Origin: Acidimicrobiaceae bacterium
GTDB lineage: Bacteria > Actinomycetota > Acidimicrobiia > Acidimicrobiales > RAAP-2
DNA length: 6,633 bases
Assembly: GCA_030838245.1 (NCBI GenBank)
Contig: JAUTXB010000164.1
Coordinates: 1-6,633, forward strand
Direction of reading: 5' to 3'
In this document: positions 1,652 through 6,388 of the stretch, in pieces
Layout: each line of letters begins with the position of its first letter
How positions within the stretch are numbered: the first letter of the stretch is position 1
Made by a program: the position numbers and the translations under genes
The notes under the pieces: generated by a model
Told to the model about the DNA's origin: nothing
What the model saw: only the letters and a program-made list of their open reading frames with translations
Database searches by the model: none

Positions 1652-1941
1652 ACGCGTGAGCTACGTGCGGGTCTGTGGTTGCAAGTCGAAGCCAGTCGCA
1701 GGCAAAACGACCCACGTAAGGCAACTCATGGTTGCCGAGCATGGTGCGGCTTAGGAGTAAGACCTGCCCGCGGCGTTCCCGACTCTCGGGGACGAGCGGA
1801 GATGGGGTGACGCGTGCCGTACACGGTGCCGCCGGGTTGTCGACCGCAGCGCGGTCAGGGAGCCACCGGTGCCGGGCCGCCATTCCCACTGCAGGCGAGT
1901 GTGGGGTCAAAGACCAGGTCAGCCGCACGTAGCCCACACGT
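1652..1941 (+). ncRNA. Structured non-coding RNA upstream of hpf, candidate raiA-motif RNA
   Basis: GCTACGTGCGG (1660-1670) is the exact reverse complement of CCGCACGTAGC (1923-1933). The pairing continues outward with GTG/CAC (1656-1658 with 1935-1937) and ACG/CGT (1652-1654 with 1939-1941), each after one mismatch: 17 of 19 pairs closing a 290-nt domain. Inside are local helices: 1675-1678 with 1712-1715; 1695-1698 with 1708-1711; 1720-1725 with 1731-1736; CGTTCCCGA (1774-1782) with TCGGGGACG (1786-1794) stacked on CCGC/GCGG (1768-1771 with 1796-1799); 1842-1847 with 1851-1856; CACT/AGTG (1887-1890 with 1898-1901); and GGTC/GACC (1905-1908 with 1912-1915). A U-G pair at 1777/1791 would be an A-C mismatch on the other strand, supporting + strand transcription. 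The raiA motif is a known conserved RNA found upstream of raiA/hpf genes in Actinobacteria and Firmicutes. That identity is inferred from position and size class, not from a model match. It could instead be a long hpf leader or another RNA. Confidence 0.65.
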
Positions 1942-2458: not shown

Positions 2459-5230
2459 ATGAGTGTCTTCACCAAGGTTCTCCGCGCGGGCGAAGGGAAG
2501 AAGGTCCGTCGGCTGGCCGAGCTGGTCCCCCTCGTCAACGACCTGGAGCCGGAGATGGAGGCGCGCTCGGACGCCGAGCTGCGAGCGGCCACCGACGTGT
2601 TTCGCCAGCGCTATGCCGATGGCGAGACCCTGGAGGACATGTTGGTCGAGGCCTTCGCCGTGGTCCGTGAGGGCGCGTGGCGGGTCTTGGGCCAGCGGCA
2701 CTTCGATGCCCAGCTGATGGGGGGCATGGCCCTTCACTTCGGGTGGATCGCCGAGATGAAGACGGGCGAGGGGAAGACGTTGGTGTCCACCCTTCCCGTG
2801 TACCTGAACGCTCTGGCCGGCAACGGTGTCCACTTGGTCACCGTCAACGACTACCTGGCCACGCGGGACGCGGCGTGGATGGGTCGCCTGCACAACTTCC
2901 TCGGCCTCACCGTGGGCCGGGTCGGGCCCGACGTCGACGACCCGGCGGCCAAGCGCTTGGCCTACGGGTCGGACGTGACTTACGGGACCAACACCGAGTT
3001 CGGGTTCGACTACCTGCGCGACAACATGGCCCGTTCCAAGGACGCCATGGTCCAGCGCGGGCACCACTACGCCATCGTCGACGAGGTGGACTCGATTCTC
3101 ATCGACGAGGCCAGGACCCCCCTGATCATCTCGGGGCCGGCGGCCGAGTCGGCCAAGCTCTACTACCAGTTCGCCGGGATCGTTCGAACGCTGCGGGCCG
3201 AAGACGACTACGAGGTCGACGAGGAGAAGAAGATCGTCGTCCCCACCGAGTCAGGCATCGAGAAGGTGGAGCGCCAGCTCGGGGTCAGCAACCTCTACGA
3301 CGCCGTGGCTGTCAACCACGTCCACCACCTCACCCAGGCCCTCCTGGCCAAGGAGCTCTACCGCCGGGACAAGGACTACTTGATCGACCAGGGCGAGGTG
3401 AAGATCGTCGACGAGTTCACCGGTCGCACCCTGGACGGCCGCCGGTGGTCGGACGGCCTGCACCAGGCGGTCGAAGCCAAGGAGCGGGTGCGCATCAAAG
3501 AGGAGAACCACACCTGGGCCACCGTGACCCTCCAGAACTACTTCCTCCTCTACGAGAAGTTGGCCGGCATGACCGGCACGGCCGAGACCGAGGCGTCGGA
3601 GTTCGCCAACACCTATTCGCTGCCGGTAGTGCCGATCCCCACGAACAAGCCGCTCATCCGGGCCGACGCCTCCGACCTCATCTACAAGTCCGAGGAGGCC
3701 AAGTTCGCCGCGGTGGTCGACGACATCGCCGAGCGACACGCCACCGGCCAGCCCGTCCTGGTGGGCACGGCATCGGTGTCCAAGTCCGAGCAGTTGTCCC
3801 GCCTGCTCGAGAAGAAGGGGATTCCCCACGAGGTGCTGAACGCCAAGCAGCACTTCCGGGAGGCCGAGATCGTGGCCCAGGCCGGCCGAGTCGGCGGGGT
3901 GACCGTAGCCACCAACATGGCCGGTCGAGGCGTCGACATCATTCTGGGCGGGAATCCCGAACTTTTGGCCCTCCACCAGGCGAGGGCCGAGGGACTGGAC
4001 ATCGAGTCCGACGAGGGGAAGGCGGCCCTGGCCGCCGCCCAGGCCCGGTTCGAGGAGTCGTGTGCCAAAGAGGGCGACGAGGTGCTGGCCGCCGGCGGGC
4101 TCTACGTCTTGGGCAGCGAGCGCCACGAGAGCCGCCGGATCGACAACCAGCTCCGGGGCCGCGCCGGCCGCCAGGGCGATCCGGGCGAGAGCCGCTTCTT
4201 CCTCTCCTTAGAGGACGACCTCATGCGCCTCTTCGCCACCAACGCCATGAGCTGGGTCATGAACCGGGCCCTCCCCGACGAGGTCCCCATCGAGGCCAAG
4301 ATGGTGACCAAGGCCATCGAGCGGGCCCAGAACACCGTCGAAGGTCGCAACGCCGAGACCCGCAAGGACGTCCTGAAGTACGACAAGGTCATGGACAAGC
4401 AGCGCAAGGTCATCTACCAGCGGCGGCTGCAGATCATCGAGGGCGAGGACCTTCGTGACGAAACCCTGGAGCTCGTCGAGTCGACCATGATCGCCCTGGT
4501 GGCCGAGGCGTGCCCCAGCGACTACGTCGAGGAGTGGGACCTGCCCCGCCTGATTACCGAGGTGACCCAGTACTTCCCGACCAAGTTCGTGGCCGAGGAC
4601 CTGGACGAGGCCACCACCACCGGACAGGTGACCGAGAGCCTGGTGACCGAGGCCCTCGAGCTGTACGCCGAGCGGGACGAGAGCCTGCCCGGGGGCGAGG
4701 AGACGGCCCGCCAGCTCGAGCGGGACGTCATGTTGCAGATCATCGACCAGCGGTGGCGCGACCACTTGGCCGACATGGACTACCTCCGAGAGGGCATCAA
4801 CCTCCGGGCCATGGGCAACCAGGACCCGCTGGTGGCCTGGGAGCGTGAGAGCTTTGCCATGTTCGAGAAGCTCATGGAGGGGATCACCGATGACTACCTG
4901 CGGTACATCTTCCACGTCCAGGTGCTCACCGAGCAGGCACCCGAGCCCGATCTGGGCCAGGCCAACTACCTCGCCGCCGACGACCCGGTCCAAGATGCCG
5001 GACCCATGGCTGCGGCCCTGGCCGGGCAAGTGGTGATGGAGGCCGAGATGGCGCTGTCCGCAGAGCCCGCATCCAACGGCCCCGGGACCAATGGCAGGCC
5101 CAGTCGTGCCCCCGATACGGCCGAGGTCCAGGCCCCCATCGTGAAGTCCGACCACGAAAAGGTGGGACGCAACCAGCCGTGCTGGTGCGGAAGCGGCAAG
5201 AAGTTCAAGCTTTGCCACGGCGCCACCTGA
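2459..5230 (+). CDS. secA: Preprotein translocase ATPase SecA
   Basis: This 923-residue protein is a full-length SecA, the cytoplasmic and membrane-associated motor that drives unfolded preproteins through SecYEG. The N-terminus (MSVFTKVLRAGEGKKVRRL) has the family's start. Nucleotide domain 1 has Walker A KTGEGKT (101-107) and the DEVD Walker B (208-211) within VDEVDSILIDEARTPLIISG. The preprotein-binding region holds FTGRT (320-324), and LAGMTGTAE precedes domain 2. Domain 2 has TNMAGRGVD (485-493) and NQLRGRAGRQGDPG (563-576). The helical scaffold and two-helix finger include WRDHL (766-770), with Met785 at the fingertip position. A variable linker (about 830-890) leads to the zinc motif C908-W-C910-x8-C919-H920, usually involved in SecB or lipid/ribosome contacts. 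Motifs are complete, so this is the housekeeping SecA (SecA1-type). Its TGA abuts prfB in the same frame. Confidence 0.98.
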   Translation: MSVFTKVLRAGEGKKVRRLAELVPLVNDLEPEMEARSDAELRAATDVFRQRYADGETLEDMLVEAFAVVREGAWRVLGQRHFDAQLMGGMALHFGWIAEMKTGEGKTLVSTLPVYLNALAGNGVHLVTVNDYLATRDAAWMGRLHNFLGLTVGRVGPDVDDPAAKRLAYGSDVTYGTNTEFGFDYLRDNMARSKDAMVQRGHHYAIVDEVDSILIDEARTPLIISGPAAESAKLYYQFAGIVRTLRAEDDYEVDEEKKIVVPTESGIEKVERQLGVSNLYDAVAVNHVHHLTQALLAKELYRRDKDYLIDQGEVKIVDEFTGRTLDGRRWSDGLHQAVEAKERVRIKEENHTWATVTLQNYFLLYEKLAGMTGTAETEASEFANTYSLPVVPIPTNKPLIRADASDLIYKSEEAKFAAVVDDIAERHATGQPVLVGTASVSKSEQLSRLLEKKGIPHEVLNAKQHFREAEIVAQAGRVGGVTVATNMAGRGVDIILGGNPELLALHQARAEGLDIESDEGKAALAAAQARFEESCAKEGDEVLAAGGLYVLGSERHESRRIDNQLRGRAGRQGDPGESRFFLSLEDDLMRLFATNAMSWVMNRALPDEVPIEAKMVTKAIERAQNTVEGRNAETRKDVLKYDKVMDKQRKVIYQRRLQIIEGEDLRDETLELVESTMIALVAEACPSDYVEEWDLPRLITEVTQYFPTKFVAEDLDEATTTGQVTESLVTEALELYAERDESLPGGEETARQLERDVMLQIIDQRWRDHLADMDYLREGINLRAMGNQDPLVAWERESFAMFEKLMEGITDDYLRYIFHVQVLTEQAPEPDLGQANYLAADDPVQDAGPMAAALAGQVVMEAEMALSAEPASNGPGTNGRPSRAPDTAEVQAPIVKSDHEKVGRNQPCWCGSGKKFKLCHGAT

Positions 5231-6388
5231 ATGCCGGCCGCTGGCAGCCCCCGTCCAGCGGGTGATACCGAGCGCGTCGACATCCCGGCGCGTCTGGCCG
5301 AGCTCACCGAGCGCCTGTCGGTGGCCGAGCACTATCTGGGCATCGAGCAACTGCGGGCCAGGCGCGCCGAGCTCGAGGCATCGGCGTCGCTTCCCGATCT
5401 CTGGGACGACCCTGACAACGCCCGTAGCGTGACCACCGAGCTGGGTCGGGTGTCAGAGGACCTCGAGCTGCTCGACGGCCTGTCGGAGATGCTGTCCGAC
5501 GCGGCCACGCTGTACGAGCTCTTGGAGGAAGAGGACGACCAGTCACAGCGTCCCGAGGTCGAAGCCGGGCTGGCCGACCTCGATCGACGGCTCGGCGCCT
5601 TGGAGCTCCGGTCGCTGTTCGCCGGGGACCATGACGAGCTCGACGCGGTGGCCGAGATCCACGCCGGAGCGGGTGGGACCGACGCCCAGGACTGGGCGGA
5701 GATGATGCTCCGCATGTACACGAGGTGGGCGGAGCGCCGGGGGTTCGAGATCGAAGTGGACGAGGCCACCCCGGGCCAGGAGGCCGGACTGCTGTCGGCC
5801 ACGTTCATCGTGAAGGGGCGCTACGCCTTCGGCCTGCTGGCCGCCGAGCGCGGCGTACACCGCCTGGTGCGCATCTCGCCCTTCGACGCCCAGCACCGAC
5901 GCCAGACCAGCTTCGCCTCCCTCGATGTCGTCCCTTTCTTGGAGGACGTGTCCGGCGAGGTCGACATCGACGAGAAGGACCTCCGCATCGACACCTACCG
6001 GTCGTCGGGTGCCGGCGGCCAGCACGTCAACAAGACGGACTCTGCCGTTCGGCTCACCCACCTGCCCACCGGGATCGTGGTGTCGTGCCAGAACCAACGG
6101 AGCCAGCACCAGAACAAAGCCAAAGCCATGCAGATCCTGGGGGCCAAGCTGGCCGAGCGACAGCGGGCCGAGCGGGATGCGGAGCTCGAAGCGCTGTCGG
6201 GCGATCGGGCCGATAACGCGTGGGGAAATCAGATCCGCTCCTACGTCATGGCGCCCTATCAGCTGGTGAAGGATCTCCGCACCAATGAGGAGACCGGAAA
6301 CGTCGAATCAGTCCTCGACGGGGACCTCGACGCTTTCATGGAAGCAGAGCTGCGCAGGCAGGCTGAGCTGCGACGAAAGGCAGACTGA
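5231..6388 (+). CDS. prfB: Peptide chain release factor 2
   Basis: The 385-residue protein is release factor 2, which reads UAA and UGA stop codons and triggers peptide release on the ribosome. It has an N-terminal coiled region rich in Leu, Glu and Arg (about 18-125), the family block [14 protein letters not shown] (144-157), the codon-recognition tripeptide SPF (216-218), and the GGQ catalytic loop (262-264) within [17 protein letters not shown]. Gln264 is the expected methylation target of PrmC, and Ser258 stands where E. coli K-12 has its unusual Thr246. The frame is open throughout: the programmed +1 frameshift used for autoregulation in many bacteria is absent. The ATG follows the secA TGA with no gap and no Shine-Dalgarno is visible, so translation probably depends on reinitiation after secA. 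No nearby in-frame ATG or GTG offers a better start; the first ~16 residues are poorly conserved. Confidence 0.96.

Follow-up and report, generated by a model that had tools for sequence, protein, structure and literature searches.

The window analysed here, meaning the whole stretch of 6,633 nucleotides from an Acidimicrobiaceae bacterium, carries the following genes, with the RNA that concerns us lying in the intergenic stretch ahead of hpf.

182-427, + strand: Trm112-like gene
424-1500, + strand: phosphosugar-isomerase-type SIS gene
between the SIS gene and hpf: intergenic stretch of 527 bases, holding the RNA
2028-2393, + strand: hpf (Ribosomal_S30AE), with a GTG start (PF02482, E 1.6e-14)
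2459-5230, + strand: secA
5231-6388, + strand: class-I release factor gene, which we take from its place to be prfB
from 6486, + strand: start of an ABC-ATPase gene, presumably ftsE by its place

A coding function for the RNA region is held unlikely, since a Pfam search of the three ORFs that overlap the element gave zero matches, in line with the initial annotation, which saw no plausible protein there, and since the length of the RNA is not a multiple of three in 6 of 12 sequences. In 8 of 12 sequences one antisense frame runs through the RNA without a stop codon, which we put down to high G+C.

The initial annotation had described a large structured RNA closed by a long-range helix, and had suggested that it belongs to the raiA motif. 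The search with the Rfam raiA covariance model that it proposed returned a match to RF03072 (raiA RNA) at 1662-1931, scoring 153.5 bits (cmscan, E 2.6e-39; gathering score 101.3) and covering the model completely from position 1 to 209. The other four matches in the window, at E values up to 10, fall below their own cut-offs and represent unrelated families. The pairings first reported were also reproduced: the perfect 11-bp pairing of 1660-1670 with 1923-1933 is exact, 17 of the 19 pairs across 1652-1670/1923-1941 are Watson-Crick, and the hairpin at 1768-1799 comprises 4+9 pairs with a folding energy of -20.9 kcal/mol. The long-range pairing alone is mildly unusual, with a comparable 11-mer pair at a distance of 100-400 nt arising in 30 of 1000 dinucleotide shuffles of 1501-2027. 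The fold of the whole element is better than that of 200 out of 200 shuffles (z -3.26).

Relatives were gathered from several samples. Genome contigs scanned with a single HPF protein gave at least seven loci, 52-74% identical, and those listed derive from MAGs titled Acidimicrobiales (four), Actinomycetes (two) and Actinomycetota (one). We see the RNA in five of these seven listed loci, and likewise in five of the seven whole genomes; the sequence of locus L006 begins merely 167 nt ahead of its hpf match. Loci L006 and L007 bear HPF in genomes (G006 and G007) where no raiA RNA was found, so hpf occurs without the RNA too. The RNA was found in 45 of 395 genomes sampled from the class of G002, by a scan whose filters are liable to miss weak RNA matches, in 23 of 59 relatives of G007, and in 137 of 396 phylum-sample genomes (135 of them over the cut-off). 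The overlapping sets of 5, 45 and 23 gave 62 relatives which, with the copy in the window, make up 63 distinct RNAs. The nearest relatives are uncultured actinobacteria of Acidimicrobiales type. The 63 RNAs range in length from 174 to 344 nt; the longest copy (L032, 1501-1844) exceeds that of the window by 74 nt, mostly in P8. At 270 nt, the RNA in the window lies within this range, and its first description as lengthened or divergent is weakly right, the extra sequence being the P6-P7-P8 variant. A long or divergent new RNA is ruled out by the full-length Rfam match and by that variant being a known one. The relevant parts of the locus are as follows.

1644-1649, + strand: -10 element TAAGCT (TAnnnT)
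1658-1935, + strand: raiA-motif RNA, conserved body, bounded where pairs cease to be conserved across the 63 sequences
1658-1670, + strand: 5' strand of P1, pairing with 1923-1935
1673-1679, + strand: P1b/P1c, pairing with 1920-1922 and 1913-1916 in 63 of 63 sequences
1680-1684, + strand: U19-G20-N21-A22-A23 turn, forming a discontinuous GNRA tetraloop with A183 (1910), mapped by Rfam numbering
1685-1711, + strand: P3a (1685-1687/1709-1711) and P3b (1691-1693/1701-1703)
1694-1700, + strand: first strand of pk-1, pairing with 1745-1751
1712-1715, + strand: 5' strand of P4, pairing with 1901-1904
1720-1736, + strand: P5 hairpin
1740-1752, + strand: pk-loop, with one half of pk-2 (1742-1743, pairing with 1908-1909) and one half of pk-1 (1745-1751)
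1763-1895, + strand: P6-P7-P8 domain, variant 2 (P6 1763-1767/1891-1895, P7 1768-1799, P8 1803-1888)
1906-1911, + strand: J4-1c, GUCAAA, holding C181 and A182 of pk-2 and A183 of the GNRA turn
1923-1935, + strand: 3' strand of P1
1932-2027, + strand: linker to hpf, with no TAnnnT and no terminator-like site
2014-2020, + strand: Shine-Dalgarno sequence of hpf, AGGAGGG

Covariation was assessed on a MAFFT alignment of the 63 sequences, which was not fitted to structure, using 55 pairs named from the window and the published model. Of the alignment cells at these pairs, 92.7% are paired, compared to 83.4% after shuffling. Changes on both sides are seen at 32 pairs and in 364 cells (shuffled, 21.5 and 126), and the covariation score is 0.321 against 0.143, falling to 0.083 or less when the partners are slid. 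In none of 500 shuffles did any of the five measures attain its value in the real alignment. The relatives were chosen by a covariance model, which favours pairing sequences, but the pairs outside the model (1658-1661/1932-1935) covary too, indicating that the signal is not merely an effect of that choice.

Compensatory changes occur in P1, P3a, P5, P6 and pk-1. The eleven P1 pairs from 1659:1934 to 1669:1924 are formed in 59 to 63 of the 63 sequences, pair 1658:1935 is formed in 54 of 63, and 1670:1923 in 49 of the 56 sequences with letters there. Both-sided changes are found at twelve P1 pairs, 1658:1935 to 1669:1924, so that the covariation test on relatives suggested by the initial annotation upholds the closing helix from 1658:1935 inward. 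The helix originally drawn at 1652-1670/1923-1941 thus stands over 1658-1670/1923-1935, and its outermost six pairs (1652-1657/1936-1941), unpaired in 24 to 38 of the 63 sequences, find no support. P1b and P1c are nearly invariant, and hence offer hardly any test of covariation; P4 is invariant and offers none. In the P3 region, which includes the adenosines A28 (1689) and A43-A46 (1704-1707), P3a and P3b are 100% paired, and two of the P3a pairs have changed on both sides, each in a single sequence. The seven pairs of pk-1, between the P3 loop and the pk-loop, are formed in 99.8% of cells and show both-sided changes at two positions. The two-pair partners of pk-2 are present and at least 90% conserved. 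In P5, six of the seven pairs show both-sided changes, and the innermost one is formed in 46 of the 60 sequences that are not gapped at this site. RNAalifold pairs of the P6-P7-P8 domain, predicted on the same sequences as were tested, show both-sided changes at 15 of 41 pairs (nine sequences) and 24 of 35 pairs (25 sequences). Three copies (L051, L055 and L069) have, within the discontinuous GNRA turn that lies between P1 and P3, an additional hairpin some 22-25 nt long, which is probably the optional P2 mentioned in PMC11706538.

At the level of comparative analysis, the Rfam match and the covariation together settle the reality of this structured RNA, and we regard it as shown by these comparisons that it is a member of the family with a fold maintained by selection. 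What is new at this locus is one more member of the known raiA family, and an ordinary one.

The resemblance to the characterised raiA/ModT RNAs (RF03072; the C. acetobutylicum cryo-EM structures 9CXF and 9ELY; C. difficile ModT) extends beyond the full-length model match. The window shares P1, P3, P4, P5, P6, P7 and P8, the pk-1 and pk-2 partners, J4-1c, the GNRA turn (U19, G20, A22 and A23), A28, A43-A46 and A57/A58, as well as the location ahead of hpf and a predicted promoter of its own. Position 21 is a C, which is permitted in the GNRA turn. Rfam numbering and that of C. acetobutylicum (PMC11751092, seen in excerpt) agree through position 58, as judged on U19, G20, A21-A23, A28, A33, A43-A46, A57 and A58; beyond this, residues were mapped by sequence pattern. 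According to the same excerpts, a short P6 occurs in 32% of sequences and a multi-stem P6-P7-P8 in 68%, and a loop E in P8, present in 20%, is not obligatory. The window differs in having a long P8 in which no loop E was recognised when the AGUA/GAA pattern was sought by eye, in the phosphosugar-isomerase-type gene upstream, where comFC is commonest elsewhere, and in its host, which lies outside the Clostridia where function was tested. Two other RNAs bear comparison. The raiA-hairpin motif is probably a family apart from the raiA motif, and OLE RNA, for which cmscan gave no match in the window, differs from raiA RNA in its fold and partners. The former has a like name and is also actinobacterial (Streptomyces ambofaciens, PMC8388888, in part), and the latter is likewise a conserved, large, stand-alone structured RNA of gram-positives, described as having an unsolved biochemical role (PMC12265935, in part).

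A TAnnnT element starts 14-20 nt ahead of the Rfam start in all 63 sequences. The best 3-nt position window holds 39 such sites, compared to a maximum of 9 in 1000 mononucleotide shuffles. TAAGCT at 1644-1649, the sole TAnnnT in 1501-2030, starts 14 nt before the conserved P1 base. Transcription usually starts about 7 nt downstream of a -10 box, and with this spacing a start is predicted near 1657, at the conserved base of P1. A sigma-70 consensus scan of 1480-2060 found no promoter match because it demands a -35 box, and the positional test was used instead. The promoter that the initial annotation placed near 1644 is thus borne out by position and conservation, which argues for a transcript of the RNA's own, and the element joins the covariance model and the compensatory changes of the closing helix in corroborating the raiA-motif identity.

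The RNA lies on the same strand as hpf and 97 nt ahead of it, and Rfam labels the family type as Cis-reg; riboswitch. One reading is therefore that it is a cis-acting leader or riboswitch, in which a ligand-sensing RNA would control the transcription or translation of hpf. As there is no second TAnnnT and no terminator-like site between the RNA and hpf, the gene may also use the promoter at 1644, which would suit such a leader. The linker is further predicted to form a local hairpin over the hpf start (1993-1996/2028-2031 and 2004-2008/2015-2020, within 1993-2031) that a regulator could open. In this fold the partners of the Shine-Dalgarno sequence and of the GTG are 2004-2008 and 1994-1996, respectively, both within the linker and neither in the RNA, which speaks against direct control. 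We also see no conserved expression platform: a terminator-like site is absent from the whole of 1480-2060, the start region is not paired with the RNA, and among nine close loci identity is only 39% in the linker, compared to 81% over the whole RNA and 95% over its first 100 nt. The lack of a terminator-like site also means that a discrete 3' end would need processing or another kind of terminator. One short block of the linker (1956-1980, GACCGATC[A/G]GGAGGACCGGCC-like, with a GGAGG core), ahead of the Shine-Dalgarno sequence of hpf itself, is common to the window and to L008, L009, L010, L026 and L041; the linker is otherwise poorly conserved.

Nor is the downstream gene constant. With the HPF of the window as tblastn query, hpf was found 22-174 nt downstream in 30 of the 63 copies, including that of the window. 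In 19 of 63 (L014, L017, L019-L023, L025, L028, L030, L034, L036, L037, L044, L046, L048, L053, L056 and L057), secA starts 40-166 nt downstream with no hpf found between, and HPF was not detected in any of these 19 genomes. A Pfam survey of ten neighbouring ORFs gave, for six others downstream, four LuxR-type response regulators, an IPP transferase and a glutamine amidotransferase, and for four upstream, two glycosyltransferases and two S-adenosylhomocysteinases. Copies that directly precede secA are hard to reconcile with a riboswitch for hpf.

The co-occurrence of the RNA with HPF depends on the sample. In the class sample, PF02482 is present in 15 of 45 carriers of the RNA and 218 of 350 non-carriers (Fisher p 3e-4, uncorrected for kinship), so that across the class the RNA and HPF show no simple positive link. 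Because kinship is uncorrected and the scan filters may miss weak RNA matches, our conclusion goes no further than this lack of a positive link. In 30 of the 45 class carriers, whose genomes are of unstated completeness, no HPF gene was detected. The model TIGR00741 gave no match over its cut-off in any of these 30, with one sub-threshold match (E 0.11), and the control ribosomal protein S16 was found in all 30, a single control gene being a thin check. By comparison, PF02482 is present in 80 of 80 further phylum-sample carriers (of 127 over the cut-off; the class of these genomes is unstated). This figure counts carriers alone, with no phylum non-carriers, and so does not measure the link between RNA and HPF, but it leaves an HPF link possible in general. 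Carriers without detected HPF come only from the class sample and from relatives of G007 (G420 and G412). The connection to ribosome hibernation that was first proposed is thus weakened by the class carriers and retains a footing in the phylum sample. The same counts divide over the hpf riboswitch, which is favoured by the 80 of 80 and opposed by the 30 of 45. If the absences are upheld in complete genomes, HPF is not an obligatory partner of the RNA in the sampled class. A literature search found HPF-less raiA carriers in no title or abstract, with Soares et al. 2024 (PNAS) outside its reach.

Work in Clostridium provides a second candidate partner. In the parts of PMC11706538 covered, C. difficile ModT is an abundant, trans-acting RNA with one SigA promoter; it can be complemented in trans, and in vivo probing suggests a bound protein. 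Cells that have lost it are slower to enter stationary phase and sporulate less, and the deletion raises c-di-GMP, which is linked to the sporulation defect, as well as tRNA and 5S levels. These data are consistent with the conserved output of the RNA being control of c-di-GMP, and GGDEF domains are indeed present in 35 of 45 class carriers and 75 of 80 further phylum-sample carriers. Against this, GGDEF was not detected in 10 of the 45, all ten among the 30 without HPF and in genomes of unstated completeness (G054, G062, G070, G109, G133, G137, G172, G242, G274 and G333), nor in 5 of the 80, so that absence is seen in class and phylum samples alike. If upheld, these absences imply that GGDEF-made c-di-GMP is not an obligatory output in such carriers, and we hold c-di-GMP control as the conserved output to be highly improbable. 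In a FastTree tree of the RNA core, in which many supports are weak, HPF-less carriers fall into several groups, the secA-adjacent one being the largest, and within that group GGDEF-bearing and GGDEF-less carriers are mixed. Overall, neither HPF nor c-di-GMP is likely to be a partner that the RNA requires everywhere.

Complementation in trans also counts against a leader acting on hpf in cis, which on all the evidence seems unlikely to us. Elsewhere, the raiA motif often lies hundreds of nucleotides from the next gene and is sometimes oppositely oriented (PMC11477304, in excerpt). We instead consider it likely that the window holds a structured raiA/ModT-family RNA that stands alone and acts in trans, and not an hpf riboswitch. 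It would be transcribed separately, as an RNA of about 275-290 nt, and closed by P1, with pk-1 and pk-2 locking a compact particle that probably binds protein; in a partial account of its cryo-EM structure, raiA-motif RNA is monomeric (PMC12286853). By analogy with Clostridium, this particle may modulate in trans how growth gives way to stationary phase, and the adjacent hpf would probably be regulated together with the RNA, perhaps in part on common read-through transcripts.

A direct target would be expected in cells with neither HPF nor GGDEF enzymes, and a first guess is the stable-RNA or translation machinery, because the C. difficile deletion raises tRNA and 5S levels (PMC11706538, in part). 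The RNA could also be catalytic, a ribozyme for the processing of other RNAs (tRNA or 5S precursors, for example), a reading that overlaps with the stand-alone RNA preferred here, which leaves catalysis open. The compact, highly conserved fold (PMC11751092, in excerpt) and the raised tRNA and 5S levels are consistent with candidate catalysis, and retention of the RNA where HPF and GGDEF are undetected asks for a widespread substrate. No catalytic activity of raiA/ModT RNA is reported in the portions of the literature covered, and we see this ribozyme reading as a slim prospect. Returning to the trans-acting RNA, secretion is another candidate target, as one group of copies lies directly ahead of secA. 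The chances seem to us evenly balanced that raiA/ModT needs neither RaiA/HPF nor GGDEF-made c-di-GMP for its core function, and acts on a universal target: ribosome or tRNA maturation, or secretion.

It is the distribution of the RNA, and not the copy in the window, that sharpens the question of what raiA does. Carriers in which neither suspected partner system was detected narrow the role of a highly conserved RNA with no known biochemical role in the literature covered, and they point to genomes where its function can be asked cleanly. If its core function is indeed independent of both systems, small genomes of actinobacteria in which HPF and all GGDEF proteins were lost and the RNA was kept behind an invariant promoter would be natural separation-of-function cases.
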